Of a stretch of 21,630 bases of DNA, positions 2,456 to 21,630 are shown one piece after another. Every line of letters begins with the position of its first letter. The first letter of the stretch is position 1. The translations under genes were made by a program, and so were the position numbers. Under the pieces are notes generated by a model. The model searched no databases, was not told where the DNA came from, and saw only the letters and a list, made by a program, of their open reading frames with translations. Source of the stretch: a virus; IMG/VR virus record IMGVR_UViG_3300020185_000293, positions 1 through 21,630 of that record. The stretch is one strand, 5' to 3'.

Positions 2456-2463
2456 TATCTTTG
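2456..2463 (+). promoter_or_regulatory. TAnnTTTG box 4 nt before ATG
   Basis: TATCTTTG is followed by AATT and the ATG at 2468. It matches the Bacteroidota -7 consensus and lies in the 19-bp divergent region next to the minus-strand regulator. No TTTG is found at a normal -33 distance: the nearest, at 2426-2429, leaves a 26-bp spacer. The predicted transcript would begin at or next to the start codon. Confidence 0.6.
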
Positions 2464-2467
2464 AATT

Positions 2468-2773
2468 ATGAATAACATGGATAAAGAGTTTATCGCGGAG
2501 GCATACTCTTTGATCGTTAAGATAGAAGAATTGATCAAAAAATATGACTATGAAGATAGAGTCATGTCCAGCATTCTCATAGGAGTTATAGACGCAGACA
2601 TGAGCTCAGAACCGAAAGACGGGGATGAAGTTGAGCTAAAGAGCATATTTAGCTACAACCTGGATAGCGCAGAAGAACTGGAAATGATGAAAGACATCAT
2701 GACTATGCAGTATAAGGGTCCCGACTCAGAGCTTGACGGACTCCTTGGAGACCTAGGTATATCGCTGAACTGA
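2468..2773 (+). CDS. acidic small protein, unknown function
   Basis: This encodes 101 residues, rich in Glu and Asp, predicted largely helical, with no recognised motif. The ATG at 2468 is chosen because it lies four bases downstream of a TAnnTTTG box; the alternative is the ATG at 2477 (residue 4). It is the first gene of a tightly packed plus-strand cassette, and its TGA overlaps the ATG of the next gene (TGATG). Acidic, soluble early-type phage proteins of this size often bind host proteins, but that is only a general possibility here. Confidence 0.7.
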   Translation: MNNMDKEFIAEAYSLIVKIEELIKKYDYEDRVMSSILIGVIDADMSSEPKDGDEVELKSIFSYNLDSAEELEMMKDIMTMQYKGPDSELDGLLGDLGISLN

Positions 2774-3009
2774 TGGAGGGATTAATAAGAAAGCTTGTAA
2801 TAGGCAAGGACCCAAAGAACGGGATGGCGTATTTCGTTGGGATGAGAGCAGGTGAAGGAAGGGTGTCTGCTATTATACAGGACGAGTCTTACTTGCACAA
2901 GTTTGGCAAATGCCGTTACTTAGTGTACACAGAAAGAGAAGAGGGCACTGACCTCTGGAAGGCGATTGACGATATGCCATGTTTGATAGAGTTTGATTTA
3001 GACTTCTAA
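2773..3009 (+). CDS. hypothetical protein, 78 aa
   Basis: The ATG shares one base with the preceding stop (TGATG), which indicates translational coupling. The protein has a compact, mostly beta-like sequence (AYFVGMRAGEGRVSAIIQDE, then KCRYLVYTEREEGTDLW) and an acidic C-terminus. There is no signal peptide, membrane segment or recognised domain. Four bases separate it from the co-chaperonin gene, so the two are probably co-transcribed. Confidence 0.65.
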   Translation: MEGLIRKLVIGKDPKNGMAYFVGMRAGEGRVSAIIQDESYLHKFGKCRYLVYTEREEGTDLWKAIDDMPCLIEFDLDF

Positions 3010-3013
3010 TATA

Positions 3014-3595
3014 ATGAGATCCCTTAATAATTTTATTGTAGAAATAAATAAAGAGCTTAACGACGAGATAGTAACGGATAGTGGATTTAAACTTTACGTA
3101 GACACCAAGTACAATGAGTTTGAACACCGAACTACAGAAGGTAAAGTTTTGGCTACACCGATTAAGTTCGACACTGGCGTCAAGTCTGGAGACACCCTTT
3201 ATTTTCATCACCATGTGGTCATCAATGGTGGCAGTCCTCTTAATAAAGAAGATAAGCAGTACGTTGTCAACTACGATGAAGAGCATGCAGCACAAAATCA
3301 GGCAATCGCTTACAAAAAAGGCGAAGAAGGTAAAGTCTATCCTCTCTACGGTTGGGCTTTGTTGGAGCCTGTTGAAGAAGATGTTAAACGACCTGAAGGG
3401 GTTGTAGAGGTAGTTTCACTAGAGGAAAACCCCGTAACCCAAGGTGTCATTTCGTTTCCGACAAAACAGCTCGAAGAGATCGGCGTATCCGATGGAGACG
3501 TGGTTGGGTTCAAAAAGAACCGAGACTATAGAATTAAAATTGATGGCAAAGAATACTACAGGGTCGCGGTCTCAGAGCTCCTCTACAAAGTTTGA
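3014..3595 (+). CDS. tandem-domain GroES-like co-chaperonin
   Basis: This 193-residue protein appears to be two GroES (Cpn10) folds fused head to tail; 193 is almost exactly twice the ~97 residues of GroES. Domain 1 (~5-100) has an N-terminal strand, a loop at ~20-42, EGKVLATP (42-49), VKSGDTLYF (56-64) and a terminal strand QYVVNYDEE (82-90). Domain 2 (~108-193) has YGWALLEPVEE (112-122), a loop with PEGVV, TQGVI (142-146), SDGDVVGFKKNRDY (159-172) and the strongly GroES-like IKIDGKEYYRVAVSELL (174-190). Phage co-chaperonins such as T4 gp31 work with host GroEL to fold the capsid protein, and I infer a similar role here. The plastid Cpn20 is a known double-domain parallel. The small gene at 3543 overlaps its 3' end by 53 bases. 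Confidence 0.85.
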   Translation: MRSLNNFIVEINKELNDEIVTDSGFKLYVDTKYNEFEHRTTEGKVLATPIKFDTGVKSGDTLYFHHHVVINGGSPLNKEDKQYVVNYDEEHAAQNQAIAYKKGEEGKVYPLYGWALLEPVEEDVKRPEGVVEVVSLEENPVTQGVISFPTKQLEEIGVSDGDVVGFKKNRDYRIKIDGKEYYRVAVSELLYKV

Positions 3596-3866
3596 GACGG
3601 TATCAGCGGCAACAAGACTAATGGATGCGATGGCTATTGCCATTGACAACATGATAGAGGAAGTAAAGAAACCAGTAGACCCAGACGCAGGGGGTTCGGC
3701 TAGAAAAGCGGAACTCCAGTCAGTAAAGCAGACCGCAGTGGATTGCAAAGAACTGATTCGGGAGAGACAGTCTCTAGAGCAGATGGTCAAAGAATTAAAA
3801 CAAAATGGAGAGATACAAGAAGACAAGGACTACTCTGGTGGGTTTGCAGAGCGATACAGCAAGTGA
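3543..3866 (+). CDS. small helical protein, possible terminase small subunit
   Basis: This encodes 107 residues from ATG 3543 (MAKNTTGSRS...), overlapping the co-chaperonin gene by 53 bases in another frame; ATG 3621 is an alternative start. After a Ser/Thr/Lys-rich N-terminus comes a helix (AATRLMDAMAIAIDNMIEEV), a Pro/Asp/Gly hinge (KPVDPDAGG) and a long charged helix (KAELQSVKQ...KELKQNGE) suited to a coiled coil. Its size, helical build and place upstream of TerL would fit a small terminase subunit. No diagnostic motif is visible and four genes plus two tRNAs separate it from TerL, so the role is tentative. Confidence 0.6.
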   Translation: MAKNTTGSRSQSSSTKFETVSAATRLMDAMAIAIDNMIEEVKKPVDPDAGGSARKAELQSVKQTAVDCKELIRERQSLEQMVKELKQNGEIQEDKDYSGGFAERYSK

Positions 3867-3966
3867 CCACACACTAAGAGTAGATGGGTTTAAATGGACT
3901 CAATCCAGTAGCAATAACAACCATATTTATTTTAACGATGAGTGGAACGATGAATACGAAAGCTAG
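3805..3966 (+). CDS. possible overlapping 53-aa protein
   Basis: An ATG at 3805 opens a 53-residue frame ending in TAG at 3964-3966. It bridges the otherwise uncoded stretch between the preceding gene (stop 3866) and the MazG gene (start 3938) and overlaps both. The product (including LRVDGFKWTQSSSNNNHIYF and an acidic DEWNDEYES tail) reads like a real protein, with mixed aromatic and polar residues. GTG 3838 is an alternative start. No homologue is recognised, and the frame may be fortuitous. Confidence 0.4.
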   Translation: MERYKKTRTTLVGLQSDTASDHTLRVDGFKWTQSSSNNNHIYFNDEWNDEYES

Positions 3967-4267
3967 TACGCTAGATGAGCTTAGTGTAGCTGTTTTAGCG
4001 TGGGCTGATGAGCGTGGCCTTATAGAAGAGGAAAACGCCCCCAGGCAAATGCTAAAGGTCATGGAGGAGATCGGGGAGCTATCAGGGGCTCTTGCTAAGA
4101 AGAACGAAGAAGAGATGATTGACGCGATCGGGGACAGCCTCGTGACAATCATTATCTTAGCAGCACAGATGGGACTGACCGCAAAGGACTGCTTAGGCAG
4201 CGCCTATAACGAAATCGCTGAGCGGACAGGGACTACCGTCGATGGTGTCTTTATAAAAGATGAATAA
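3938..4267 (+). CDS. MazG-like nucleotide pyrophosphohydrolase
   Basis: From ATG 3938 the protein has 109 residues; ATG 3950 is an equally plausible start, and an in-frame ATG at 3884 would add a hydrophobic N-terminus that is probably untranslated. It shows the metal-binding signature of the all-alpha NTP pyrophosphatase (MazG) superfamily: EEIGE at ~43-47, then ~11 residues later EMIDAIGD at ~59-66, on two helices. The family hydrolyses (d)NTPs to NMP and PPi; phage members are proposed to act on aberrant nucleotides or to lower ppGpp in the host cytoplasm. It overlaps the next gene by 8 bases, which suggests coupling. Confidence 0.85.
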   Translation: MSGTMNTKASTLDELSVAVLAWADERGLIEEENAPRQMLKVMEEIGELSGALAKKNEEEMIDAIGDSLVTIIILAAQMGLTAKDCLGSAYNEIAERTGTTVDGVFIKDE

Positions 4268-4478
4268 GAGAAACTACAAGAAGGAGTACAAGAAGTACGG
4301 TAAAAGCAAGGCCGCTAAAAAGTACCGCGCCGAACTGAATCAGTACAACAGAAAGTCTGGTACTTACGGGAACGGAGACGGCAAGGACGCCGCTCACGAG
4401 GGTGGTAAAATTAAGAGGTTTGTAAAAGCCGCTATAAACAGAGCAAACAACAGGCCTAAAAAAAGAGGGAGCAAGTAA
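4260..4478 (+). CDS. small basic protein resembling a degenerate HNH-type phage protein
   Basis: This encodes 72 residues, about one third Lys/Arg. The layout NYKKEYKKYGKSKAAKKYRAELN, then GDGKDAAHEGGKI, then INRANNRPKKRG resembles a family of small phage HNH-like proteins with a basic N-terminus, a GDGKDVDHK core, a glycine-rich loop and a C-terminal asparagine/arginine segment. Here the expected D-H pair has become A-A-H and the NL-R-V stretch is missing, so nuclease activity is doubtful. HNH proteins often sit beside terminases and can assist packaging, and this one is ~0.9 kb upstream of TerL. An alternative is a simple nucleic-acid-binding protein. Confidence 0.65.
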   Translation: MNKRNYKKEYKKYGKSKAAKKYRAELNQYNRKSGTYGNGDGKDAAHEGGKIKRFVKAAINRANNRPKKRGSK

Positions 4479-4517
4479 TCGACAGAGATCCTCCTACGCA
4501 TGAAGAGGTGGACCAAC

Positions 4518-4591
4518 TGGGGCGTAGCTCAGCTGGTTAGAGCATCTGTCTTATACACAGAAGGTTGCGGGTTCGAGTCCCGCCGCCCCAA
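4518..4591 (+). tRNA. tRNA-Ile(TAT), reads ATA
   Basis: A complete 74-nt cloverleaf: the acceptor pairs TGGGGCG/CGCCCCA are perfect, followed by TA at positions 8-9, the D stem GCTC/GAGC, the anticodon stem TCTGT/ACAGA, loop CTTATAC (anticodon TAT), a 5-nt variable loop, T arm GCGGG-TTCGAGT-CCCGC, and discriminator A. CCA is not encoded. The anticodon TAT decodes ATA isoleucine. Confidence 0.93.
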
Positions 4592-4624
4592 CAAATTTTG
4601 TTACCTTTAAGGAAAATTCTTTCA

Positions 4625-5014
4625 ATGAAACCAGACAAGTTCACTTTTAATGGATGGAGACTCTTTTCGGTTATACTTCTATCTATTTCTCTGGGCGCTT
4701 GCGGCACTTATGCTGGTGTTAGTAAGTCACTTGCTGACGACCTAGAGAATAGGGAAGTTCCTCTTTACAATTATGCAGATACTGTTTTTTTGCAAGAGTA
4801 CAGGGCTACATTGGAGCCTGACTATATTGCTACACTTTCCATTGATAGCAACTTGATTGGAGTTAAGGTAGACCCATATTTGATCCAAACTACCCCAGGA
4901 GTTAAGGGGTCGGAATACTACTACAGAATACATCTATATCACTCAAAAGTTGACAGTGTCTTCATGGACTACGTTGACACCTCTAATAAAGTTTTATCAT
5001 GGGAAAAGGAATAA
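4625..5014 (+). CDS. lipoprotein, unknown function
   Basis: This encodes 129 residues from ATG 4625. The frame is open upstream, into the tRNA, but an MRVRVPPP-type leader read from a tRNA T-arm is a well-known artefact. The N-terminus carries a basic/aromatic start, a hydrophobic core (LFSVILLSISL) and a lipobox LGAC with Cys26, so lipid attachment after signal peptidase II cleavage is expected. The mature part (~104 aa) has no recognised domain. A phage lipoprotein could be an outer spanin, a receptor-blocking (superinfection exclusion) protein, or an expressed cell-surface modifier. It sits between two tRNA genes and overlaps a second, shorter lipoprotein frame by 16 bases. Confidence 0.75.
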   Translation: MKPDKFTFNGWRLFSVILLSISLGACGTYAGVSKSLADDLENREVPLYNYADTVFLQEYRATLEPDYIATLSIDSNLIGVKVDPYLIQTTPGVKGSEYYYRIHLYHSKVDSVFMDYVDTSNKVLSWEKE

Positions 5015-5139
5015 CACTACTTGGACTGTGCGCGTTAGGCATGATTTTTTCTACTTGCTCTCCTCGCCACTGCGAAGCGTACACCATACATCAGGAAAAA
5101 AATGTATTCATAGCATGCCCTCGTAGCTCAGATGGATAG
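4999..5139 (+). CDS. very short lipoprotein, overlapping tRNA-Arg
   Basis: ATG 4999, inside the end of the preceding lipoprotein gene, opens a 46-codon frame: MGKGITLLGLCALGMIFSTC then SPRHCEAYTIHQEK and on. The N-terminus is a good short lipoprotein signal (Lys, hydrophobic core, FSTC lipobox at Cys20), leaving a mature peptide of ~27 residues. The stop at 5137-5139 lies inside the D arm of the tRNA-Arg gene, so its last ~7 codons are tRNA sequence. Two overlapping lipoprotein signals in different frames recall the embedded or overlapping gene pairs of spanin systems, but no inner-membrane partner is seen. It may be fortuitous. Confidence 0.45.
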   Translation: MGKGITLLGLCALGMIFSTCSPRHCEAYTIHQEKNVFIACPRSSDG

Positions 5140-5190
5140 AGCAACAGCCTTCTAAGCTGTGGGCCCCAGGTTCGATTCCTGGCGGGGGTA
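5117..5190 (+). tRNA. tRNA-Arg(TCT), reads AGA
   Basis: A complete 74-nt cloverleaf: acceptor GCCCTCG/CGGGGGT with G-T pairs at the end and at the fifth position, D stem GCTC/GAGC, anticodon stem ACAGC/GCTGT, loop CTTCTAA (anticodon TCT), T arm CCAGG-TTCGATT-CCTGG, and discriminator A. CCA is not encoded. It decodes AGA arginine. Confidence 0.93.
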
Positions 5191-5204
5191 CTTAATTCAA
5201 TGGA

Positions 5205-5384
5205 ATGTCAAAATACAAATGTGAGTGCGGAGAAACCGCAGAAGTACAGAATGTAAGCATCAAGGTTATCGACGGGAAAGTACGTCACGATGTACCTTGT
5301 GAGTGCGGTAAATACATGTCCCCCACCGAAAAGAAATCTGGCATGCCTTCGTTTAAGAGCAATAGGTATGGACAGATCCGATGA
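5205..5384 (+). CDS. small zinc-ribbon-like CxCG protein
   Basis: This encodes 59 residues from ATG 5205 (ATG 5200 is in another frame and stops quickly). It has two CxCG knuckles, KCECGE (Cys6, Cys8) and PCECGK (Cys32, Cys34), separated by a beta-like segment with VIDGKVRHDV, which fits a zinc ribbon or treble-clef metal site. The C-terminus ends GMPSFKSNRYGQIR. The gene ends 17 bases inside the terminase gene, so the two are probably translationally coupled. Small CxCG proteins of this type occur next to packaging genes in Bacteroidota phages. A DNA-binding or packaging accessory role is possible but unproven. Confidence 0.72.
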   Translation: MSKYKCECGETAEVQNVSIKVIDGKVRHDVPCECGKYMSPTEKKSGMPSFKSNRYGQIR

Positions 5385-7479: not shown

Positions 7480-7485
7480 GTTTAT

Positions 7486-7493
7486 TATATTTG
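7486..7493 (+). promoter_or_regulatory. TAnnTTTG box upstream of portal gene
   Basis: TATATTTG is followed by seven bases and the portal ATG at 7501. It lies in the 21-bp gap after the TerL stop. No -33 TTTG is seen at ~19 bp upstream. Confidence 0.55.
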
Positions 7494-7500
7494 CCGTTAG

Positions 7501-9993
7501 ATGCACGGTACACAGGGAAAAAACAGCACAGGCTTTCCTGACCCCCTTGAGCCGAGGGAAATAAAAGAGGGTAAGGAATATGGTTTGCGCTACGCAAAAG
7601 CTATTGCTTCCCAGTGGGGTAGCTACGAGCAGGATAACTCCCTGATGAGAAAGCGTCGTAGGGTTTTCGATAGAAACAGAAAGTACGCTAACGGAACTCA
7701 AGACACTAGCATTTATAGGCAGCTTCTGACCAGTCTCGATCCTAACAACTCAGACGGAAGCTTCTTGAACATGGACTTTACGCCTGTTCCAATCCTCCCT
7801 AAGTTTGTTAGAATTGTAGTCAATAAGATCCTTTCTACGGAACCTTATCCTAACCTTGAAGCTGTCGACCCTTTGTCGTCAAGCGAGAAGGACTTGGAGC
7901 GAAAGAAAGTAGAGATGGCTGTGGCTAACAGGCAGAAACTAAACGACATCAAGAAAAATACAGGGGTTGACATCGCGGAGATGGAACAGATTCCTGAGAC
8001 TCTTGAAGAGGCGGAGATTTTCATCGGAAACAACATCAAGTCTTCTTCCGAGATAGCGGCCCAGGTTGCCACGAATATGACTTTGAAGTGGAACGACTTC
8101 AATGATGCTACTTATAGGCGCTGCGTAAACGACCTTGCTACACTTGGTATGGCTGTCGTAAAGCGCGACAACGACCCTAGCCAAGGAATTAAGACAAGCT
8201 ACGTTGACCCCTCGGAATTCGTTCACAGCTACACTAACGACCCTAACTTCGGGGATTTGGTTTACGCTGGTCACGTAAGGCGTGTTCCTATCCAGGAGTT
8301 AAAGCGGATCGCTGGAGATCAGTTTAGCGAAGAGGAGTACAAGAAGATAGCTCAGAAGGCCGCCAAGAAGTACGGTTATGACGTAAGTAAACTTGGTGAG
8401 AGCAGGTACGACGACTACTTGAAAAGGTATAGGTTTGGTTATGACGAATACATGGTTGAGGTCATGGATTTTGAGTTCGTGTCTGTGGATCAGATGTACT
8501 TTGAGGAGAAGGAGAGTCAGTATGGTAATACTGGCTTTTACTACAAAGGAGACAGCTACAAGGGCCCTAGTAACTCTGTCTTTAGGAGAGACGTAAAGAA
8601 GCTTGAGAACGCAGTTGTGTACGGGGGGAGCTTTATCATGGGGTGTGACATGCTGTACAACTATGGGATGCAGACAAACATCCCTAAGAACATGCACGAC
8701 CTCTCTAGGGCTAACCTGTCTTATTCTGTTGTTGCAACCAACATGGAGGATATGATCCCCAAGTCTATGGTTGACAGCTGCGTAGGTTTTGCTGACCAGC
8801 TTCAGCTGACTCACTTGAAGATTCAGCAAGCTATTGCTAAAGCTAAGCCTGACGGGATCATTATTGACGTTGAAGGACTGGAGAATGTGCAGTTAGGTAA
8901 AGGGGGTGAGCTTCAGCCACTTGAGCTTCACGACATCTATGAGCAAACTGGTGTATTCTACTATAGAAGTAAAAATCCTGAAGGTGGATTCCAAAACCCC
9001 CCGATCAGGGAGATTGGCAATTCTGTCAGGAACATCAATGAATTCATTGCTCTATACAATCATTATTTGCGTATGATCCGCGATGCTACAGGCATCAACG
9101 AAGCAATGGACGGGACCACTCCGAAAGGAGAGCAGCTGGTAGGCGTGCGTCAGCAAGCTATTGCAGCGGGCAACAACGCTATCTACGACATTACTAATTC
9201 TTCTATGGTTCTGTTCAAGAAGGTTTGTTCAGATATTGTAAAGTGCTTGCAGGTCATTCCTAGGGAGAGCATTCTGTATCGCGCTTACGAGAACGCTATC
9301 GGTAGTGAAAACATCGGTATTCTAAATACGTTCAACAACCTTCCTATGTACAACTTTGGGGTACAGGTGGTTAAGGAGATGGAGGACGTTGAGAAGCAGT
9401 ACCTGGAACAGAATATACAAGTGTCCTTAGCGCAGAAAGAACTAGACATCGAGGACGCTATAGCCATCAGGCAGCTGAAGGACATCAATCAAGCGGAGAG
9501 GCTGCTAGTTGTTCGTCGTAAGAAGCGTATGGCAGCTAATCAGATGATGGCTCAACAGAACTCACAGATGCAAGCTCAGGTACAGGCTCAGGCTTCTCAG
9601 GCTGCTAGTCAGGCTAAGATGCAGGAGTTGCAGGCTAAGGCTCAGATTGATGCTCAGATGGAGCAGATGAAGGCTCAGATAGAGGCTCAGTTAGAGACGT
9701 TAAAGCATGAGCACAGAAAGGAGATCGAAATGATCAAAGCTCAAGCTACTCTTGGATTTAGAACTGAAGAGCAAGAGTTTAGGGAAAAGCTTGAGGTTCT
9801 CAAGGAAGACAGGAAGGACACGAGAGTTAAGAAGCAAGCTACTGAACAAAGCAAGCTGATTTCTCAAAGGCAAGGCGAGCGTGGTGAGCTTCCAGAAACC
9901 GAAGGTGAGATAAGCGAGGGTGACAGCTCTGAAGACATTATCAATGACATAATTAGCTCTGCCTCACAGGGACCGCTACCTCCGCAGCAATAA
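7501..9993 (+). CDS. portal protein
   Basis: This 830-aa protein directly follows TerL, the standard place for the portal, which forms the dodecameric vertex ring through which DNA passes. Support comes from size, position and the N-terminal pattern YGLRYAKAIASQWGS followed by an RKRRRVFDRNRKYANG segment, FTPVPILPKFVRIVVNKIL, and a helical stem/wing region. The section around YNHYLRMIRDATGINEAMDGTTPKGEQ resembles a conserved portal segment. The C-terminal ~150 residues (~670-785) are a Gln/Ala/Glu/Lys-rich coiled coil (repeats of QAQ, QAKAQ, EAQLE), which would form the barrel or crown inside the head, followed by an acidic tail. It is longer than most podovirus portals, similar to crAss-like ones. 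No frameshift is seen. Confidence 0.9.
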   Translation: MHGTQGKNSTGFPDPLEPREIKEGKEYGLRYAKAIASQWGSYEQDNSLMRKRRRVFDRNRKYANGTQDTSIYRQLLTSLDPNNSDGSFLNMDFTPVPILPKFVRIVVNKILSTEPYPNLEAVDPLSSSEKDLERKKVEMAVANRQKLNDIKKNTGVDIAEMEQIPETLEEAEIFIGNNIKSSSEIAAQVATNMTLKWNDFNDATYRRCVNDLATLGMAVVKRDNDPSQGIKTSYVDPSEFVHSYTNDPNFGDLVYAGHVRRVPIQELKRIAGDQFSEEEYKKIAQKAAKKYGYDVSKLGESRYDDYLKRYRFGYDEYMVEVMDFEFVSVDQMYFEEKESQYGNTGFYYKGDSYKGPSNSVFRRDVKKLENAVVYGGSFIMGCDMLYNYGMQTNIPKNMHDLSRANLSYSVVATNMEDMIPKSMVDSCVGFADQLQLTHLKIQQAIAKAKPDGIIIDVEGLENVQLGKGGELQPLELHDIYEQTGVFYYRSKNPEGGFQNPPIREIGNSVRNINEFIALYNHYLRMIRDATGINEAMDGTTPKGEQLVGVRQQAIAAGNNAIYDITNSSMVLFKKVCSDIVKCLQVIPRESILYRAYENAIGSENIGILNTFNNLPMYNFGVQVVKEMEDVEKQYLEQNIQVSLAQKELDIEDAIAIRQLKDINQAERLLVVRRKKRMAANQMMAQQNSQMQAQVQAQASQAASQAKMQELQAKAQIDAQMEQMKAQIEAQLETLKHEHRKEIEMIKAQATLGFRTEEQEFREKLEVLKEDRKDTRVKKQATEQSKLISQRQGERGELPETEGEISEGDSSEDIINDIISSASQGPLPPQQ

Positions 9994-10004
9994 CATATAA
10001 TTAT

Positions 10005-10012
10005 TATCTTTG
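10005..10012 (+). promoter_or_regulatory. TAnnTTTG box 4 nt before ATG
   Basis: TATCTTTG is followed by TAGC and the ATG at 10017, in an A/T-rich 23-bp gap after the portal stop. The spacing to the ATG equals that at 2456, 15277 and 21258. Confidence 0.6.
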
Positions 10013-10016
10013 TAGC

Positions 10017-10310
10017 ATGAAAGCCTGTAAGTCTTACAAAAAAGGAGGACGGGTCCTACTTAAAATGGGGAAACACAAAGACCCAAAAGGAGGACTTACT
10101 CAGGCTGGAGTAAAAAAATACAATAGGGAGACTGGAAGCAACCTGAAGATGGCTGTTACTACAAAGCCCTCAAAGTTGAAAGCAGGCAGCAAAGCTGCGA
10201 AGAGAAGGAAGAGTTTTTGTGCTAGAATGAGTGGGGTAAAAGGGCCGATGAAAAAGCCTAATGGAAAGCCTACTCGCAAGGCATTGGCGCTAAAGAAGTG
10301 GAACTGTTGA
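10017..10310 (+). CDS. small basic protein, DUF6321-like
   Basis: This encodes 97 residues, very Lys/Arg/Gly-rich. The block GGLTQAGVKKYNRETGSNLK...AVTTKPSKLK...GSKAAKRRKSFCARMSG...KALALKKWNC matches a small-protein family common in marine phages that I remember as DUF6321; the fixed points are GGLT, KxY, AVT, RRKSFCARM and the KWNC end. Its function is unknown. The high charge suggests nucleic-acid binding or an internal head protein. The N-terminus MKACKSYKKGG is nearly the same as that of the gene at 10840. It starts from its own TAnnTTTG box and ends two bases before the next start. Confidence 0.8.
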   Translation: MKACKSYKKGGRVLLKMGKHKDPKGGLTQAGVKKYNRETGSNLKMAVTTKPSKLKAGSKAAKRRKSFCARMSGVKGPMKKPNGKPTRKALALKKWNC

Positions 10311-11453: not shown

Positions 11454-11461
11454 TATATTTG
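11454..11461 (+). promoter_or_regulatory. TAnnTTTG box upstream of scaffold gene
   Basis: TATATTTG is 14 bases before the scaffold ATG at 11476, in the 30-bp gap after the preceding gene. Unlike the others it leaves a short A/T-rich leader (CTAAAATTTAATTT). Confidence 0.55.
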
Positions 11462-11475: not shown

Positions 11476-12546
11476 ATGGAAGATCAACAAGTTAATCCAA
11501 CCGAAGGACAGGAGCAAGAAACTCCGTCTTTCACTTTTGTGGATGAATCTGAGGTCATCGAAGCACAACAAGCCGAGGCTGGTGTGTCAGAACCTCAGGT
11601 AGAGATGCAAGAGGATGTTGTAGAACAGACTCAAAACTACGAGCCTTCAACGGAAGAAGCTCAGAGTGAACATATAGAACAAGACTACTCTCAAGAGGAT
11701 GTCGAAGGGGCGGTACTGAATTACCTTAGCGAAAGGCTTGGGACTCAGGTCGAATCTTTAGACGACCTTATTGGGGGTCAGCAACAAGAGAGCGAGCTTG
11801 ATGAGCGGATTGCCGCTATTGCTCAGTTTGTCGAAGACACTGGAAGGGCTCCTCAAGACTGGTTTATTTATCAGCAGCTTAACCCATCCGAAATGGATGA
11901 CATGACTGCAATTCAAGTTCAGATGGCATCTGACTATCCAAACCTGTCTCAAGAGGAAGTGTCCACTTTGATGAGCAGCAAGTACAAGCTCGACCCTGAT
12001 CTGCATACAGAAGATGAGGTGAAACTCTCACAGTTGCAACTGAAGATTGACGCTCAAAATGCGCGTCAGGGAATTGAAGAGCTGCGTGGTCAGTATTCAA
12101 CCCCTGAAGTAAATGAAAGCGGAGATGATCAGTCTCCATTCGACGACAACTGGTATCAGTCTATGCAAGCCGAAACTGAAGCTCTCGACGGGGTCGAATT
12201 TGACCTCGGTAACGGGAAGAACTTTACGTTCGGATTGAATGACAGGTATCGAAACGAGTTGGTGGAGAAGAACACTCGCCTTGACGAGTTCTTTGATCCT
12301 TACGTCCAACAGGATGGGAGCTGGGACTACGACAAGCTGAATATTCACAGGGCTGTAGTTGACAACATGGAACAAATTGTTCAGTCGGTATACAAACAAG
12401 GTATGGCAGACGGTCAACGAGGCATTGTGAATCAGGCAGCTAACGTAAGCGCTCAAACCCCGAATCAAGGTGGACAACCCCAGGAAGACAACCTTTCTTC
12501 GCAGCTTAGGCAAGCGTTGGGAGGGGACTCAACTTGGTCTTTTTAA
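11476..12546 (+). CDS. capsid scaffolding protein
   Basis: This 356-aa protein sits immediately upstream of the major capsid gene. The first ~90 residues are extremely acidic and Gln-rich (EDQQVNPTEGQEQE, EVIEAQQAEAG, EEAQSEHIEQDYSQED), the middle is helical and charged, and the C-terminus is Gln-rich and ends GGDSTWSF. Acidity, low complexity, helical content and position are the usual marks of a scaffolding protein that guides capsid assembly and then leaves the prohead. No protease motif is seen, so it is probably not a scaffold-protease fusion. Confidence 0.8.
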   Translation: MEDQQVNPTEGQEQETPSFTFVDESEVIEAQQAEAGVSEPQVEMQEDVVEQTQNYEPSTEEAQSEHIEQDYSQEDVEGAVLNYLSERLGTQVESLDDLIGGQQQESELDERIAAIAQFVEDTGRAPQDWFIYQQLNPSEMDDMTAIQVQMASDYPNLSQEEVSTLMSSKYKLDPDLHTEDEVKLSQLQLKIDAQNARQGIEELRGQYSTPEVNESGDDQSPFDDNWYQSMQAETEALDGVEFDLGNGKNFTFGLNDRYRNELVEKNTRLDEFFDPYVQQDGSWDYDKLNIHRAVVDNMEQIVQSVYKQGMADGQRGIVNQAANVSAQTPNQGGQPQEDNLSSQLRQALGGDSTWSF

Positions 12547-14340: not shown

Positions 14341-14355
14341 CAAACACTGGTAATT

Positions 14356-14392
14356 GAGAGGGCCCTTCGGGGCTCTCTCTCTTACTCTTTTT
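14356..14392 (+). terminator. rho-independent terminator
   Basis: Stem GAGAGGGCCC (14356-14365) pairs with GGGCTCTCTC (14370-14379) around a TTCG tetraloop, with one G-T pair. It is followed by a T-rich tail TCTTACTCTTTTT. It lies 15 bases after the stop of the preceding gene and closely resembles the hairpin at 13955. Confidence 0.8.
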
Positions 14393-14410
14393 AATTCAAC
14401 TACAAATTCA

Positions 14411-15223
14411 ATGACTACTACAACTAAGAGGGGGCCAGGTCGCCCCGCCACAAAAAAGACCGTCACCCCTCAGGCTACAAAGCAAAAGCCTAGGATAAAA
14501 AGAAATTTAGATACGAATTCCGTAAAGGAGTACAAAACCATTAAGTCTATGGGGGCGACCTATATGATGCAGCAGAAAGGGACAACGGTCTTTGACGCTG
14601 AAGAGAACAGAATAAGAGAGATTCGGTACTGTCCAAACGAGCCTAGTATTTACAGAGAGGAGCAATCCGATAACGCAAGGCGGGAAAGCATTGTGTTTAT
14701 TGAAGGGAGAAAGTTTGTTCGTCCTGACCAGCCCAACCTGATTGAGTTTATGGAGACTCACCCAGACAACAAGGTTAACGGAGGGACTCTGTTTGAACTC
14801 GTCAACAAAGAAAAGAAGGCTGAAGTAGAGGTCGAGAAGGAGTTCTTGGTTGCTGATGCTGTTATGATGATCAGAAACAAAGATCTTGAGGAGCTTCTTG
14901 GAGTTGCTGTAGCCCTTGCTGTAGACGTAGATAGACCAGTAAACGAAATCAAGCATGACCTCTTGGTGTTTGCTAAGAAGAGTCCACAGAAGTTTATTGA
15001 GTCATTCGACAACCCTGTCGTAGAGATGAAGACTAAGCTAAAGATGGCTGACAAGTACCAGATCATCAAGCTCAGCAGCGATGGGGTGAAGTGGTATGAC
15101 ACCAACAAGCTCATCGTGTCTGTACCAGCAGGTAAAGACCCTCTGGACGTATTCGTAAGGTATTGCCTGACCGAGGTGGCTGTCCCAATCGTTGAAGAGA
15201 TTGACAAGCAGCTGAACGCTTAA
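14411..15223 (+). CDS. protein with N-terminal AT-hook-like motif, head-associated
   Basis: This encodes 270 residues from ATG 14411; a longer frame from upstream would begin inside the terminator. Residues ~6-16 (KRGPGRPATKK) match an AT-hook, the GRP core that binds the minor groove of A/T-rich DNA, followed by more Lys/Arg (KQKPRIKRN). The rest is a mixed globular protein with RYCPNEPSIYR, an FIEGRKFVRPDQPNLIEFM segment and a helical C-terminal half. Its position between the decoration and connector genes suggests a head protein, perhaps contacting packaged DNA. Nothing shows enzymatic activity. It is followed by a strong terminator. Confidence 0.7.
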   Translation: MTTTTKRGPGRPATKKTVTPQATKQKPRIKRNLDTNSVKEYKTIKSMGATYMMQQKGTTVFDAEENRIREIRYCPNEPSIYREEQSDNARRESIVFIEGRKFVRPDQPNLIEFMETHPDNKVNGGTLFELVNKEKKAEVEVEKEFLVADAVMMIRNKDLEELLGVAVALAVDVDRPVNEIKHDLLVFAKKSPQKFIESFDNPVVEMKTKLKMADKYQIIKLSSDGVKWYDTNKLIVSVPAGKDPLDVFVRYCLTEVAVPIVEEIDKQLNA

Positions 15224-15244
15224 CGTATTGGAATTACCAACAAG

Positions 15245-15274
15245 AAAGGCCGCCTTCGGGCGGCTTTTTCTTTT
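15245..15274 (+). terminator. rho-independent terminator
   Basis: GCCGCC (15249-15254) pairs with GGCGGC (15259-15264) around TTCG, extended by AAA(G)/(T)TTT pairs, followed by TTTTTCTTTT. It closes the preceding gene and directly adjoins the next TAnnTTTG box. Confidence 0.92.
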
Positions 15275-15276
15275 CG

Positions 15277-15284
15277 TATATTTG
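15277..15284 (+). promoter_or_regulatory. TAnnTTTG box 4 nt before ATG
   Basis: TATATTTG is followed by CTTC and the ATG at 15289, right after the terminator's T-run. A promoter for the neck genes is exactly what is needed here, because the terminator upstream cuts them off from the head genes. Confidence 0.7.
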
Positions 15285-15288
15285 CTTC

Positions 15289-16005
15289 ATGGCAAGCGTA
15301 TCCGCCGTATACAACACTCTTAAAGACTTGGTTAACAAAGACCAAAATGGGTTTGTTACGCCTACTGTGTTCAACAACTTTGCTCAGATAGCTCAGCTAA
15401 GAATATTCAATAGATTATTCGATGAGCTCAAAGACGCAAAGCGAATAAGCAAGGCAGGCTTTAACCCTGGTCGGGACAAGTCTAGGTTCAAAAGAATCGA
15501 AGAGGATTTGGCTTATTTCTCTAGAGTGGCTACCCCAACAAAGGTCGGGGATGTATTCCCTAAACCAGACGACCTTGCTAGACTCATCGGAGTTACAACT
15601 ACCACTAACCCTAGGGTGAACGTAGAGATGTGCTACGACGAAGACAAGATTGACAGAATCTTAATCAGCAACATTAGCGCCCCAACAACGGACTTTCCTG
15701 TGGCTTTGGTCAATCAGGACATAGAGGTGTTTCCTAGTAGTATAGCAAACATCAGGGTTAAGTACTACAAGTACCCTCAGGGTCTTGATAATACTGGGGC
15801 AGCTTCTGTTTCTCCGCCTACGGTAGTCGTGGATGCTAACGACACCCCTACTTCAACCTGTATAGACTTTGAACTACCCGATCACTACCTCAATGACTTA
15901 GTGATTGAGATAGGGCAGCTTATTGGGATTAACCTTAGGGATCAGTTAGTTACTCAGACTACTCAGTTGGAGCAGAACGAACGTAAACAAGAAAGCACCT
16001 TCTGA
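15289..16005 (+). CDS. head-tail connector/adaptor-type protein
   Basis: This encodes 238 residues, beginning MASVSAVYNTLKDLVNKDQN with a helical N-terminus (NNFAQIAQLRIFNRLFDELKDA) and then an RFKRIEEDLAYFSR section. It shares a TGATG stop/start overlap with the next gene. Position between the head module and the large neck protein, plus size, suits a portal-proximal adaptor or ring protein (gp40/43-type in crAss-like phages, tubular or adaptor proteins in other podoviruses). The middle is beta-rich (VEVFPSSIANIRVKYYKYP). I see no catalytic motif. The exact ring position cannot be told from sequence. Confidence 0.7.
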   Translation: MASVSAVYNTLKDLVNKDQNGFVTPTVFNNFAQIAQLRIFNRLFDELKDAKRISKAGFNPGRDKSRFKRIEEDLAYFSRVATPTKVGDVFPKPDDLARLIGVTTTTNPRVNVEMCYDEDKIDRILISNISAPTTDFPVALVNQDIEVFPSSIANIRVKYYKYPQGLDNTGAASVSPPTVVVDANDTPTSTCIDFELPDHYLNDLVIEIGQLIGINLRDQLVTQTTQLEQNERKQESTF

Positions 16006-16832
16006 TGTCGAGGAATTATATACCACTAAATCAAGTAATTAACGACTTTGTAGTTACTCTGGATACAGACGACTACGTAAGTAACGCCCCTGACACAACC
16101 CTCAGGAGTTTTGCTTTGCGGGGTATTCGCGAGATGGGGTTTGACCTGTTGAAGGTCGTCAGGTCCCTAAAGATGCCTGTATCGAGTAACAACACAATCG
16201 ACCTTCCAGACGATTACGTGGACTGGAGCAAGGTTGGGGTTGTAGGCAATGACGGGCTGGTGTATGTGCTGGGAGAGAACAAGAACTTGAACATATCTCA
16301 GACATACGATCTGGATAGCAACGGAGACCCTCAAGACGCAGACAGCGATGGGTTTTTTGACAGGGTGGACTCTAAGTCAGCCACTTCTAGCGGATCCCCT
16401 GCTTCAGACGCTGGTATCGCAGACGGTATGGAGTCATATATCTTCCGCAACTTCGTTCACGAGAACAATCAGGGTCGGCTGTATGGTATCGGAGGCGGCA
16501 ACTATTACGGGGAGTTCAGGGTAAACTTGGATCAGAACAGACTCGAACTGAAGAGCAACTCTAGTATCAGTGAGGTAGTCATCGAATATATAGCTGATGA
16601 AGCCAGGTCTGTAAATCCTAGGGTTCACATCTATGCAGAAGAAGCTTTGAGGTCTTTCATCTACTACAAGATGATTGAGCGCAAGTCTTCTGTCCCAGCT
16701 AACGAGAAGGCTAGGGCTCGACAAGAGTACTACAACGAAAGGCGCAAGGCTAACGCTCGCATGAAGTCCTTCACGAAAGAAGAGTTGCTCAAGACTATTC
16801 GTAAGAACTTTAAGCAAGCACCTAAGCGCTAA
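16005..16832 (+). CDS. neck/ring (head-tail) protein with a DxDxDG calcium-type loop
   Basis: This encodes 275 residues. The TGATG start and TAATG stop overlaps show tight coupling with both neighbours. The start (MSRNYIPLNQVINDFVVTLD) and the helical section FALRGIREMGFDLLKVVRSL resemble ring or adaptor proteins of Bacteroidota podoviruses, and VPDDY-type strand positions (DLPDDYVDWSKVGVVG) recall tail-adaptor (gp11-like) proteins. Residues 102-122 contain D-L-D-S-N-G and D-A-D-S-D-G-F-F-D, resembling thrombospondin type 3 or EF-hand-like calcium loops. The C-terminus is basic (RARQEYYNERRKANARMK). Confidence 0.72.
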   Translation: MSRNYIPLNQVINDFVVTLDTDDYVSNAPDTTLRSFALRGIREMGFDLLKVVRSLKMPVSSNNTIDLPDDYVDWSKVGVVGNDGLVYVLGENKNLNISQTYDLDSNGDPQDADSDGFFDRVDSKSATSSGSPASDAGIADGMESYIFRNFVHENNQGRLYGIGGGNYYGEFRVNLDQNRLELKSNSSISEVVIEYIADEARSVNPRVHIYAEEALRSFIYYKMIERKSSVPANEKARARQEYYNERRKANARMKSFTKEELLKTIRKNFKQAPKR

Positions 16833-19800
16833 TGGCTATTGATAAGACTATACCGAACAGACTCCAAGCAGATGCTGATCAGAGGCTTGTACGCCCTGAA
16901 GTCGGTGAGATGCTTGATGCTCAGAACGTTACTATGGCAGAGGGTGGAGGCAGTTCTTCTGGTGTCATCAAGAACGTCAGGGGTACACTTGCTGGTACGC
17001 CTCTTACTGCTTCGGACAGGATTGCAGACGATGATGCGGTAACGGTTATCGGTAGTGTATCTGATCCTCAGCGTGGGTTCATATACTGGTTTGTTGCTGA
17101 CAATGCAGGAAGCTCTCAAGACGCTATATATCAGTACAATACGTCAGACGACACCTATAGAGTGGTGTTAAAGGGGTCTTTTCTGTCCTTCAGTCATAAT
17201 GGATTTATTAAAGCAGACTTAGTAAACGCTGCGTTTCAACAAGATGGAGTTATTCAAACTGCTTTATACTTTACTGATAATGTAAACCCTCCTAGAAAAA
17301 TTAATGTAGACAGGGCTATATCTGGGGACTACGCAGTTTTTGGTCAAGTTTCTGGCGATATAGACTTTTCTATAACTGTCATTAGAGCCTGTCTAACTAC
17401 ACCACCTACGTTCTTTTTTGAAACAGACGAAAATTTTTCAATAAACAACTTTAGGGAGGATTCTTTTCAGTTTGCCATACAGTATATATACAAGGACGGG
17501 GAGGAGTCAGCTATATCTACGTATTCAAAAATAGCAGTATCGAACTCAATAAAAGAATCTGGAATTGTAGATGTGTTGTCTTCTACCAACGACGAGAACG
17601 TTTGTGTAATTGACACTAAGTGGGTGTCTGAAAACGAAAGAACGTACAAAACTGACGTAAAAAAGATAAGGATCCTGGGAAGGGTTAGGAATGGGGGTAC
17701 TTTTTATATTATAGATGAATTCGATCCAAACTCTTCCGTTTCTAGAGAGTTTGATGGAGTGGACCTAAATGTTTATGACTCTACCCTCGGTCACTACAGA
17801 TTTTACAATGAAGGTCTCTACTCTGTTGTTTCGTCAGACACGGTCAACAAGATTTATGATAATGTACCTCTTTTAGCTGCTGGTCAAGCAATAGCAGGAA
17901 ATAGGTTGATGTACTCTAATTACACAGAAGGCAGAGAGAACAACCCTGTGTCTCCTAACTTGTCAGTTACTTACTCGTCAGATAATCCTTCTGGAAGCTC
18001 TAGTTACCACGATCAGTCTAACGCTGCTTCCGCTATTACAATCGCCCTTAATGTCTCTGACGTAGAGGACGGAAAGGTTGTAGTTGATTTAACATCTAAT
18101 GCTTTTACCTGGCCCTCTCCAAACAATCAGACATCTACAGTACCAGACAATACCACCACAAAAATATCTTTTGACTACTTACTTTTTTCAGACGTGTATA
18201 AATCTGGAAGTGAGGTTCATACGATTTCGTGTGTTAGTGACGGGGGGGAGTTTGACTTGGATTTTGGGACAGCAACGAACAATAAATTTCCGATTAGACC
18301 AGCTGACTTATCTAGTAGTAACCCAAATCCTCTTTCAGTTAGCGCTACCTACACTACTTCTGGGTCGCAAGACGTAGAAAACATATCTGACGGGCTAAAA
18401 AGCTTGCTCGTTGACACTCAATACGAATCATCTTACATATACACAGTAAATTCTGTTTCTGCTGTAATATCTAACAGTACGGACTCTTCATACCCTGACG
18501 GAGGAACGGTATTGGGAACCGTTAAGTTCAAGCTAGTGATGGGGTTTGATCAGATAACGGACGATAATGATGATGGGTTGTTTATTATTAGTCCGTATAT
18601 AAAAGAAGTAGAGGTCTTGTCTCACGACTTCTCTGCGGTCAATTCTATAACTAGCCAGTCAACAAACTCGTCTTTGCTTTCCACGCAGGCGACTTATGAT
18701 GCTGATCCAACACAAACATCAGGAACATACATATCAAGTCCTTCGGTTTATTCTCAGTCTCCATCTCTCACCAGCTCTTTTAAGATGGGGAGTTCTCATG
18801 AATTTGGAATTGTTTATTATGACAAGTGGGGGAGAAATGGATTTGTAAATAAAGCAGGTAGCATATACGTGGACCACACTGCTGAAAGATCTAGTAATTA
18901 TGGACCAGCGTCAATAACTATGTCTTTCGGTTCTGGCGAGGACCCACCTTCTTGGGCGGACTCGTGGCAGCCCGTGTATAGAGGTATGTCTTCTTTTAAT
19001 GATTTTACCACATACACTACTGGTGGGGGATATCCAATAAAAGAGAACGGTCACGCCACACTAATAGAGTCTGACCATAGAATATATGTTTCTTTAAACA
19101 CCCTTGACATATACAACGAAGAACAAGGGGGGTTTAGAGACTATTCCTTTACGGAAGGGGATATACTCAGGGTGATATCTAGAAAAGAGGGAACGTCAGG
19201 AACAGTCTACTACCCTTCGGCTAATGATGGTTCTCCGATAGAATTTAAAGTTTTAGGTGTTGAAATGCTTGCACCTAATACGAACGAGGACCCCAATCCG
19301 CTTGTGGGGAATGATTCAGGCCACGGAAAACACTACACTGGAAAGTTTCTTGTTCTTCAAGCGCCAGATGTGGACGGAGGCAGACAAGTTGACACTGATG
19401 GAGACGGAATCGTTGATGCTGACCTAAAGTACAACGGCTTTGACTGGCCTTCTATTACTGGGAGTAACTATCCCAACGACGCCAATTCCACAACCACAAA
19501 CTACTGGGGTAACGAAACTGTAGTGGAGATACTTTCTCCTAGAAGTACCACTTCTAGTAACGTGTTTTACGAAATTGGAGAGCGTCAAAAAGCAAACGCT
19601 TGGGTAATAGTACCTAGCAGGGTAGACACTCAGCACGGTCCCGCGTTAACGATTAGAGAGGGCGACGTCCACACGAGGGTTATTTCTTGTCAAACCCCTG
19701 TATACGATTCCTCCTGGAACACAGACTCAGAGACCCCAAAAGAAGATTGGGGGTATGCGAGTAAGGTTATAGAGACAAGAACCCTAAGCGATAAACAGTC

Positions 19801-21256
19801 CGAAGTGTGCTGGTCAAGAGGAAGGCCTCACATACCTTTTGAAAATGCAGCAGAGGTAAATAGGTACAACGGGATCACATACAGCGACGCCTATGCCGAG
19901 GACGTAGCGAACCTTTCACTATCATCATTTAATCCTAGCCTCGCTAACTTTTTTAGTCTCGACTCAGCTAACGGGGCCTGCAATTACATAGATACGTTTA
20001 GGGATGGCTACTTGCTTGCCTTCCAAGAAAATAGGGTTTCTAGGGTGGGGGTAAACAAAGACATCATTACCACTCCAGCAGCAGGACAGATTCCGTCCTT
20101 AACAACAAGCGTACTTGGGGAGCCCGTATATTACCTAGGTGACTTCGGGTGTGGGGATAATCCTGAGTCTGTCCTTATCCGCGACGGCAATGCTTTCTTT
20201 GTAGATATGTCAAGGAAGAAGTTAGTTAGGCTAACCTCAGAGGGGTTGTCTCCAATCTCTGAGAACGGAGTAGACTCTATGTTCAAGACCAACCTCGATT
20301 CATTTACAGAAGAAGGGGGGACTCGTATTGTCAGCGGATATGACCCCGAAGACAATCAATACTATGTAACCCTAAGACAGATAGACAATCCCGCTTATGA
20401 CCCTGAGATTGAGGGAAGTGAAGAGTTCCTGTATAACGGCCTTACGTTGGGGTACAACATTTCTGCAGGGGCATGGCAGAGTAGATATACGTTCTATCCA
20501 GACATGTATTCTGATCAAAACGGAACTTTGTATTCTGCGTACTACACTCAAAACGAAGCAGTTAGCGATGACGCAGAGGTGTTTCACCACCACACAAACG
20601 AAACAGAATATAACACGTTTTATGGGGGGTACGGAACCTCAATAGTGAAGGTTGTTAGCAATCTAAACCCAAGCATGACTAAGGTGTTTAACGCTATATC
20701 CACTGAGGGAAGTGAAGCTCAACGGTGGGTAGCTTCAGTAATTACTGACCTTGGTTCAAACGGAAGCATAGACATTACAGACTTCCAAGACAAAGAAGGG
20801 AGTAGGTATGCATCTATACGTAGAGACTCTTCTTCTAATAGCACTAAGCACATAATACCTATAGGTGAGGTTGCGTCATCAGATATTGGTACTGGAGTAG
20901 TCACGTTCGTAAATAGAGTGAATACGCTACCACTCATGTCAGGGTCTACCGTCATGGAGGTTGATGGACTAGGCAACCTCACTAACATAGGTACGCCTAT
21001 TAACTCGGTTCTCACCTCTAGAACCCTTGGCTCTGTTGTTGCTACTAGGCAAATACAATTAGACTTCGGTACATCAGTAAACCTTACTGGAAAAGACCTT
21101 GTTCTTGTAACGGACCAAGACCAAAATGGAAACCCAATCCGTGGACACTGGGCAGAAATAACACTAACTACTAACCAAGCTACACCTTTTGAGTTGTATT
21201 GTGTAAACACGCACATCGTGCAATCACATCAAGATCACTCGTTAGGCCAGCAATAA
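16832..21256 (+). CDS. giant neck protein, crAss-like muzzle/stabilization-protein relative
   Basis: This 1474-aa protein begins at the TAATG overlap. The N-terminus has IPNRLQADADQRLVRPEVGE, then LDAQNVTM, then GVIKNVRGT, then a section with YFTDNVNPPRKINVDRA. I associate this start (NRLQxDAD, A-N-x-T, V(I)KNVRG) with the stabilization/muzzle protein of crAss-like and related podoviruses, which sits below the rings in the short tail. The long middle is Ser/Thr/Asn-rich beta sequence. D854-D864 (DTDGDGIVDAD) is a calcium-type loop. The C-terminal ~400 residues hold RDGYLLAFQENRVSRVG and PVYYLGDFGCGDNPESVLI, resembling a beta-propeller-like tail region. Its central ~1.8 kb is markedly AT-richer than its ends. 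It is followed by its own TAnnTTTG-driven gene. Confidence 0.82.
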   Translation: MAIDKTIPNRLQADADQRLVRPEVGEMLDAQNVTMAEGGGSSSGVIKNVRGTLAGTPLTASDRIADDDAVTVIGSVSDPQRGFIYWFVADNAGSSQDAIYQYNTSDDTYRVVLKGSFLSFSHNGFIKADLVNAAFQQDGVIQTALYFTDNVNPPRKINVDRAISGDYAVFGQVSGDIDFSITVIRACLTTPPTFFFETDENFSINNFREDSFQFAIQYIYKDGEESAISTYSKIAVSNSIKESGIVDVLSSTNDENVCVIDTKWVSENERTYKTDVKKIRILGRVRNGGTFYIIDEFDPNSSVSREFDGVDLNVYDSTLGHYRFYNEGLYSVVSSDTVNKIYDNVPLLAAGQAIAGNRLMYSNYTEGRENNPVSPNLSVTYSSDNPSGSSSYHDQSNAASAITIALNVSDVEDGKVVVDLTSNAFTWPSPNNQTSTVPDNTTTKISFDYLLFSDVYKSGSEVHTISCVSDGGEFDLDFGTATNNKFPIRPADLSSSNPNPLSVSATYTTSGSQDVENISDGLKSLLVDTQYESSYIYTVNSVSAVISNSTDSSYPDGGTVLGTVKFKLVMGFDQITDDNDDGLFIISPYIKEVEVLSHDFSAVNSITSQSTNSSLLSTQATYDADPTQTSGTYISSPSVYSQSPSLTSSFKMGSSHEFGIVYYDKWGRNGFVNKAGSIYVDHTAERSSNYGPASITMSFGSGEDPPSWADSWQPVYRGMSSFNDFTTYTTGGGYPIKENGHATLIESDHRIYVSLNTLDIYNEEQGGFRDYSFTEGDILRVISRKEGTSGTVYYPSANDGSPIEFKVLGVEMLAPNTNEDPNPLVGNDSGHGKHYTGKFLVLQAPDVDGGRQVDTDGDGIVDADLKYNGFDWPSITGSNYPNDANSTTTNYWGNETVVEILSPRSTTSSNVFYEIGERQKANAWVIVPSRVDTQHGPALTIREGDVHTRVISCQTPVYDSSWNTDSETPKEDWGYASKVIETRTLSDKQSEVCWSRGRPHIPFENAAEVNRYNGITYSDAYAEDVANLSLSSFNPSLANFFSLDSANGACNYIDTFRDGYLLAFQENRVSRVGVNKDIITTPAAGQIPSLTTSVLGEPVYYLGDFGCGDNPESVLIRDGNAFFVDMSRKKLVRLTSEGLSPISENGVDSMFKTNLDSFTEEGGTRIVSGYDPEDNQYYVTLRQIDNPAYDPEIEGSEEFLYNGLTLGYNISAGAWQSRYTFYPDMYSDQNGTLYSAYYTQNEAVSDDAEVFHHHTNETEYNTFYGGYGTSIVKVVSNLNPSMTKVFNAISTEGSEAQRWVASVITDLGSNGSIDITDFQDKEGSRYASIRRDSSSNSTKHIIPIGEVASSDIGTGVVTFVNRVNTLPLMSGSTVMEVDGLGNLTNIGTPINSVLTSRTLGSVVATRQIQLDFGTSVNLTGKDLVLVTDQDQNGNPIRGHWAEITLTTNQATPFELYCVNTHIVQSHQDHSLGQQ
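17160..18930 (+). other. AT-rich segment inside the neck-protein gene
   Basis: Hand counts of 60-base rows give ~33% GC at 17401, 17521 and 17701 and ~37% at 18181, against 43% at 17101, ~47-50% at 16141, 20101 and 20281. The edges are approximate. It corresponds to residues ~110-700 and contains most of the low-complexity Ser/Asn/Thr beta region. The reading frame is intact throughout. Confidence 0.6.
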
Positions 21257-21257
21257 C

Positions 21258-21265
21258 TATATTTG
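21258..21265 (+). promoter_or_regulatory. TAnnTTTG box 4 nt before ATG
   Basis: TATATTTG is followed by TAAC and the ATG at 21270, immediately after the neck gene's stop (TAA 21254-21256). Confidence 0.62.
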
Positions 21266-21269
21266 TAAC

Positions 21270-21630
21270 ATGGACCCAATTACTTTATCGCTCATAGGAT
21301 CTACTTTAGGTCAGGGTATATCAGCTTTTGGTCAGCGTAAGGCAGCCAAGGAGCAAGAAGACCGTTACAGCGAACTAGGTGGTGCTGGGGAGGCTGAAGC
21401 CAAAAGGCTCAAGTCTCAAAGAGAAGGCATGTATGGGGTAGGGCCTACTATGCGTAAGTACATGCAGTACGCTATGCAAGACCCTACTGCTGACCTTCAG
21501 AGGCAAGAGGCTCAGAGGCAGTCTGGTACAGCTGTGGAGGCGCTGAAGGCTGGAGGGGCTAGAGCGGTCCTCGGTGGGCTTGGCAAACAGCAACAACAAG
21601 CTGCCAGCACTATGGCTAGTATTGGAGCGG
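21270..21630 (+). CDS. putative internal virion/ejection protein (3' end missing)
   Basis: ATG 21270 opens a frame that runs off the window with 120 codons visible. The product starts MDPITLSLIGSTLGQGISAF, an Ala/Gly-rich hydrophobic stretch, then charged helix-forming sequence (RKAAKEQEDRYSELGG, KRLKSQREGMYG), then Gln/Ala/Arg-rich repeats (LQRQEAQRQSG, LGGLGKQQQQAAS). A glycine-zipper-like N-terminus plus a long Gln/Ala-rich helix is typical of podovirus internal virion proteins that are ejected with the DNA. The gene stands directly after the neck gene, where internal or cargo proteins are often found. Full length and domain content are not visible. Confidence 0.65.
   Translation, partial: MDPITLSLIGSTLGQGISAFGQRKAAKEQEDRYSELGGAGEAEAKRLKSQREGMYGVGPTMRKYMQYAMQDPTADLQRQEAQRQSGTAVEALKAGGARAVLGGLGKQQQQAASTMASIGA

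Follow-up and report, generated by a model that had tools for sequence, protein, structure and literature searches.

The 21,630-nt DNA stretch analyzed here, hereafter the window (positions 1 to 21,630 of IMG/VR record IMGVR_UViG_3300020185_000293), corresponds to the late module of a podovirus-like Bacteroidota phage, as read from its gene content and its relatives, and six of its genes are preceded at short distance by a box of the form TAT[AC]TTTG. It is highly probable, taking the proposal as a whole, that these boxes are late promoters of sigma-A type reduced to the -7 element, with the transcription start site (TSS, +1) placed on the ATG itself in about half of the late units. Such promoters would be of the Bacteroidota sigma-A type and would retain TATMTTTG as a strong -7 box, immediately preceded by T-rich DNA; the start of transcription would lie 4-5 nt downstream of the box. 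In about half of the late units of the clade the A of ATG would stand at +1, and the mRNA would open with AUG and be translated without a leader. In the other late units a conserved leader would persist, about 2-3 nt long at the portal gene and about 10-16 nt elsewhere. Early operons in these phages would be served by another type of promoter, in which the -33 element is clear and the leader measures about 23-36 nt. At the gene of a neck-like protein the leaderless state would be derived, the box and the start codon having stayed as they were while about 15 nt between them disappeared. The box, its limitation to first genes, its fixed spacing, its conservation and its ancestry can be established from the sequences themselves.

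Boxes of the window

The word TAT[AC]TTTG is found six times on the plus strand of the window and never on the minus strand, and these six occurrences are the boxes in question. Four of them are separated from an ATG by exactly four bases (N4). The first, TATCTTTG at 2456..2463, is a predicted leaderless promoter located within a 19-bp divergent gap and directed to the ATG at 2468; the others are TATCTTTG at 10005..10012 (ATG 10017), TATATTTG at 15277..15284 (ATG 15289) and TATATTTG at 21258..21265 (ATG 21270). The box at 15277 is a predicted leaderless promoter fused to an intrinsic terminator on the same strand (15244..15269), whose T-tract continues straight into it. The two remaining boxes, both TATATTTG, lie 7 nt upstream of the portal ATG at 7501 (7486..7493; predicted 5' untranslated region (5'UTR) of 2-3 nt) and 14 nt upstream of the ATG at 11476 (11454..11461; predicted leader of about 10 nt). 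All six had been reported at these positions in a preliminary description of the sequence, which also placed three of them behind a stop codon or terminator. This arrangement was recovered as well: the terminator abuts the 15277 box, and the boxes at 7486, 10005, 11454 and 21258 closely follow stop codons.

In order to evaluate chance occurrence, 1,000 dinucleotide shuffles of the window were used as control. The six TAT[AC]TTTG boxes compare with a shuffle mean of 0.65, and the four TAnnTTTG-N4-ATG sites with a mean of 0.092; neither count was reached in any of the 1,000 shuffles. The looser word TAnnTTTG, for which an excess upstream of gene starts had been claimed initially, occurs 16 times in the whole window against 14.9 expected. 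The departure from chance thus concerns position and the refined word and not TAnnTTTG overall, and TAT[AC]TTTG together with its spacing was used as evidence instead. All six boxes also conform to TAHHTTTG, the -7 element of Bacteroidota sigma-A promoters. The lack of a global excess of the loose word is what an origin by chance or by A/T composition would predict; such an origin has a practically negligible probability in view of the shuffles, of the phylogenetic conservation of the box and of an excess in the relatives that is specific to strand and spacing, as described below.

Boxes in related phages

Two scans of IMG/VR provided 160 related loci, of which 139 (1.88 Mb) were kept after de-duplication. 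The positional excess that the preliminary description had proposed to look for across full genomes and relatives is present and large: the late strand has 132 occurrences of TAT[AC]TTTG-N4-ATG and the opposite strand has two. Most other spacings below 14 nt yield 2-5 counts, N5 (23) and N7 (18) standing out as smaller peaks; no peak of the N4 type is seen with permuted control words. TATMTTTG is the predominant word at the N4 sites of these relatives. As these sites share common ancestry, the counts do not represent independent events. On the late strand of the phages, N4 sites reach a density of about 65 per Mb per strand, versus 2.45 in 60 Bacteroidia genomes, where the N8 control gives 1.12. 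Boxes number about 7-12 per genome in the 11 large relatives; nearly all of them are on the late strand, and they occur at the same genes. Among the 107 of these boxes that are followed by an open reading frame (ORF), the distance to the start is bimodal, with 68 at 3-8 nt, none at 9-13 nt and 32 at 14-30 nt.

Orthologous starts were placed using tblastn and a box was scored within 60 nt of each start. The gene of the 15289 type, referred to as the neck gene, carries a box in 42 of 43 orthologs, at a spacing of 4 in 26 and of 15-21 in 16; in 40 of the 43 the box comes after a terminator-like hairpin, whose T-tract continues directly into it. The portal gene has a box in 47 of 48 loci, 7 nt away in 15 loci and mostly 18-34 nt away in the others. 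The spacing is 4-5 in all 17 loci with a box at the DUF6321 gene (10017 type), 4 in 9 of the 11 orthologs with a box at the 21270-type gene, and mostly 14-15 (10 loci) at the 11476-type gene. The 2468-type gene displays a spacing of 4-5 in 9 loci and of 18-20 in 15 loci. The 7- and 14-nt sites of the window, initially listed beside the N4 sites, are conserved variants of their own and not loose versions of N4, since each spacing is kept at its gene in the relatives.

In leadered orthologs of the 2468 gene (e.g. L108, L120 and L143), a conserved AAACAAATTTACA is found between box and ATG and is lost in the leaderless clade; it may possibly represent an operator or an RNA element.

A fixed distance to the start codon could also denote a translation-initiation signal of the phage rather than a promoter. 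This was examined at genes located inside operons, namely the gene of the major capsid protein (MCP), the genes g16005, g16832 and g2773, and the GroES gene (0/32, 0/36, 0/41, 0/49 and 0/39). None of these 197 internal starts carries the box while nearly all first genes do, which identifies a promoter signal and led to the rejection of the translational reading. The word is moreover identical to the host -7 element, and orthologous genes retain it even when it lies 15-21 nt away. Host translation, as described in Flavobacterium johnsoniae, prefers A at positions -3 and -6 (PMC6847099), a preference that the N4 sites do not show. A purely translational role is thus extremely improbable.

Predicted leaderless transcripts

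The F. johnsoniae box is defined as T-12 A-11 T-8 T-7 T-6 G-5 and is separated from the TSS by 4 or 5 nt (PMC6847099), and TSS mapping in Flavobacterium psychrophilum places the box at -12 to -5 (PMC9723704). Under this geometry, the A of ATG stands at +1 when the spacing is N4. The N4 peak taken together with this published geometry supports the prediction that the mRNAs of the N4 genes begin at AUG and are leaderless, and the leaderless promoters suggested in the preliminary description are upheld on these comparative grounds; the exact TSS and the leaderless translation are deduced in this manner. The start codons at N4 sites, ATG in 132 cases, GTG in 2 and TTG in 1, agree with the AUG preference of leaderless genes. 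A pyrimidine occupies position -1 in 114 of 129 N4 sites versus 75 of 150 leadered sites. This bias (p=3e-12) would be expected from initiation focused on the A of ATG.

Several points weigh against this interpretation. No preference for a -1 pyrimidine is seen at leadered promoters in the same phages, and N4 sites are few or absent in some relatives that have the same genes (none in G009 and G011). Leaderless mRNAs represent 5.5% in F. psychrophilum (PMC9723704) and leaders of at most 10 nt only 13% in F. johnsoniae (PMC6847099). Finally, 5'-end transcript data were sought for any of these phages and none were found, so that leaderless transcription and translation are still predictions. Leaderless and leadered genes did not differ consistently in the folding of the first 45 nt of the mRNA. 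No literature on leaderless promoters in Bacteroidota phages was found, most subscription journals being outside the coverage of the search.

The promoters might also be genuine and the working start codon lie downstream of the N4 ATG, leaving a short-leadered mRNA, given that the gene calls are based on ORF logic and not on protein N-termini. This is very unlikely, because the N4 ATG and the start of the leadered orthologs coincide in alignment (MASV... at the neck gene) and because ATG predominates so strongly over GTG and TTG at these sites.

Origin of the predicted leaderless state at the neck gene

The evolution of the neck-gene promoter was followed on an MCP tree of 42 loci labelled by neck-gene spacing; the tree is midpoint-rooted and its outgroup branches are long. 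The leaderless state requires 2 changes on this tree versus 13 in shuffles. The 26 leaderless loci all fall in a single clade of 27 rows, the remaining row being a reversal (L033). At this gene a leader is present in the distant isolates phi38:1, elemo and MW202828 and in the other IMG/VR branches, and it is because of this distribution that the leadered state is taken as ancestral. The N-termini of the neck proteins (MASV...) align between the two classes, which indicates that a leader of about 15 nt was lost and that the start was not moved; the creation of a new upstream ATG was rejected on the same ground. The leaderless state of the neck gene thus appears, from these comparisons, to have arisen once from a leadered ancestor of the phi38:1 and elemo type by loss of about 15 nt, with one reversal.

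It could be imagined that the phages alter the host late in infection, through its polymerase or through its ribosome or initiation factors, in such a way that leaderless mRNAs are favored. In that case the change of the late promoters from leadered to leaderless would be adaptive, handing late translation over to the phage, and 5'UTRs of about 5-9 nt would be selected against. This scenario is considered speculative and doubtful.

The -33 element and the RNA polymerase

The early-strand promoters of the same phages read AAATTTGG-N19-TAtcTTTG, with mostly 26-40 nt between the box and the ATG. In one relative, the genes of this strand include ribonucleotide reductase, primase/helicase and exonuclease; the designations early and late, and hence the late timing of the boxes, are deduced from such gene content. 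A TTTG located 20 nt from the box is present in 10 of 95 early-strand boxes and in none of 184 late-strand boxes (p=1.5e-5), the -33 element of sigma-A promoters being therefore missing from the latter. This part of the preliminary description stands. The modified or activator-dependent polymerase evoked at the same time is not needed, as the -33 signal is barely visible in F. johnsoniae host promoters and hence not strictly defining (PMC6847099), so that its absence is no proof of a modified enzyme. A search of 14 phages for a late sigma factor of the T4 type revealed no Sigma70_r2 domain, and Sigma70_r4 gave only matches below cut-off. With host promoters often devoid of a visible -33 element and no phage sigma detected, the host sigma-A RNA polymerase is the simplest candidate enzyme for the late promoters, its use being deduced from sequence comparison.

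The contrast between early and late promoters nevertheless leaves room for an activator. The late promoters might require a phage factor, either the winged-helix protein encoded at 2023..2448, an undetected sigma or an activator, that would allow the -7 box to be used without -33 in the manner of T4 late promoters. The -33 contrast itself, the confinement of late boxes to one strand and the conservation of the winged-helix gene beside a predicted leaderless promoter (29 of 32 IMG/VR contigs tested) are in favor of such a factor. The scarcity of -33 signals in F. johnsoniae sigma-A promoters and the results of the sigma domain searches are not, and no counterpart of the winged-helix gene was found in the three distant relatives phi38:1, elemo and MW202828, whose orthologous late promoters have the same box. 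A requirement for a phage factor is thus judged rather unlikely.

The candidate regulator is a divergent 141-aa protein with a MarR-like winged-helix fold (2023..2448, minus strand; predicted local distance difference test (pLDDT) score of the model, 78; MarR-type Foldseek matches with probability 1.00 and E ~5e-3). Its gene stands alone on the minus strand of the late module, 19 bp from the divergent predicted leaderless promoter, and no TAnnTTTG box was seen near it. It is unsupported as the cause of leaderlessness, being also present in relatives with a leadered neck-gene promoter.

One relative (G006, 33437-42994; L186/L187) encodes a giant late protein of 3,185 aa with almost no family match apart from a weak one to PHROG 586, and a PHROGs search for a phage sigma or RNA polymerase identity produced nothing useful. 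Genes of similar length lie behind a box, at a spacing of 5 or 17-20, in most large relatives.

Gene content and affiliation of the window

All the genes preceded by a box are on the plus strand. The predicted leaderless first gene at 2468..2773 encodes a 101-aa protein without assigned function and is present in all 11 large relatives. It is followed by the genes of the portal protein (7501..9993; PHROG 6547, E=5.6e-196) and of a DUF6321 small basic protein, predicted to be leaderless (10017..10310; PF19846, E=4.1e-26). A 356-aa protein with a predicted leadered transcript is encoded directly upstream of the major capsid gene, in a scaffold-like position (11476..12546). Two further predicted leaderless genes encode a virion protein weakly resembling an SU10 adaptor, hence the neck designation (15289..16005; PHROG 14543, PF24175 below cut-off), and a virion structural protein that runs off the contig (21270..21630; PHROG 13764).

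A strong terminator at 14356-14379 lies just upstream of the 14408 gene, where TATMTTTG is absent; orthologs of this gene have a box at 20-30 nt in 8 of 38 cases. The late module also contains two tRNA genes (4518-4592 and 5117-5191), tRNA-Ile (anticodon TAT) and tRNA-Arg(TCT); direct reading of AUA by the TAT anticodon is uncommon in bacteria.

The best annotated relatives of the window phage are Flavobacterium, Cellulophaga and Maribacter phages. The closest terminase among phage records is that of MW202828 (48%), all being below 60%, and the MCP displays 31% identity to its best matches and about 31% to elemo. The GTDB contigs found to carry a terminase of the window type are all Bacteroidota metagenome-assembled genomes. 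From these affiliations, the group appears to be one of marine phages infecting Bacteroidota in which the N4 spacing is conserved at many late genes. The window phage does not show the close relationship to phi38:1 that would place it in Pervagoviridae/Callevirus, the MCP tree placing phi38:1 on a long branch of its own, outside the window clade.

Extent and significance

The fused T-tract-TATATTTG-N4-ATG cassette was also looked for in other IMG/VR contigs. Among the matches listed, an ORF of at least 60 aa is opened in 74 of 81 cases versus 34 of 80 for N6. Such cassettes (L231-L310) occur in many other viral contigs, unclassified and in some cases longer than 300 kb, which suggests that leaderless promoters exist in other virus groups and that the feature probably extends past this clade.

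Bacteroidota do not use Shine-Dalgarno signals for translation, although most of their own mRNAs have a leader. Orthologous phage promoters found in both states, sharing box and start codon and differing mainly by a leader of about 15 nt, constitute a natural paired experiment on leader function. Many TSS predictions at single-base resolution follow from the N4 sites, and the terminator-box-ATG cassettes, of about 45 nt, represent compact expression parts for Bacteroidota.

Comparison with known systems

The late promoters share with the Bacteroidota sigma-A (sigma-ABfr) promoters the TAHHTTTG box, the expected 4-5 nt to the TSS, the AT-rich upstream DNA and a weak or absent -33 element. They differ from those of Bacteroidota hosts by their short leaders: 5'UTRs are mostly longer in the hosts, 87% exceeding 10 nt in F. 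johnsoniae, while 68 of the 107 phage boxes are located 3-8 nt from the start.

The late promoters of T4 consist of TATAAATA without a -35 element, are read with gp55, gp33 and the clamp, and give rise to leadered late mRNAs. The phages described here resemble T4 in the use of a single -10-type box on late genes and of two-part promoters on early genes. They differ from it in that no phage sigma was found and in that the box is the host's own -7 consensus.

In Actinobacteria and Deinococcus-Thermus, TA-led leaderless genes carry TANNNT about 10 bp upstream of the start (PMC3160421). There, likewise, a -10-type word at a fixed short distance to the ATG predicts a leaderless mRNA. The sigma box and the phylum are different, and here a phage late regulon is concerned, with a leadered ancestor mapped at one promoter.

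The closest parallel in gene organization is offered by phi38:1 of Cellulophaga (Pervagoviridae, Callevirus) and the elemo phages of Flavobacterium (Elemovirus), which display the same order terminase-portal-MCP-neck and also have a box behind a terminator in front of the orthologous neck gene. Their boxes are located 19-21 nt from the start, so that this promoter is leadered in them, unlike its counterpart in the window.

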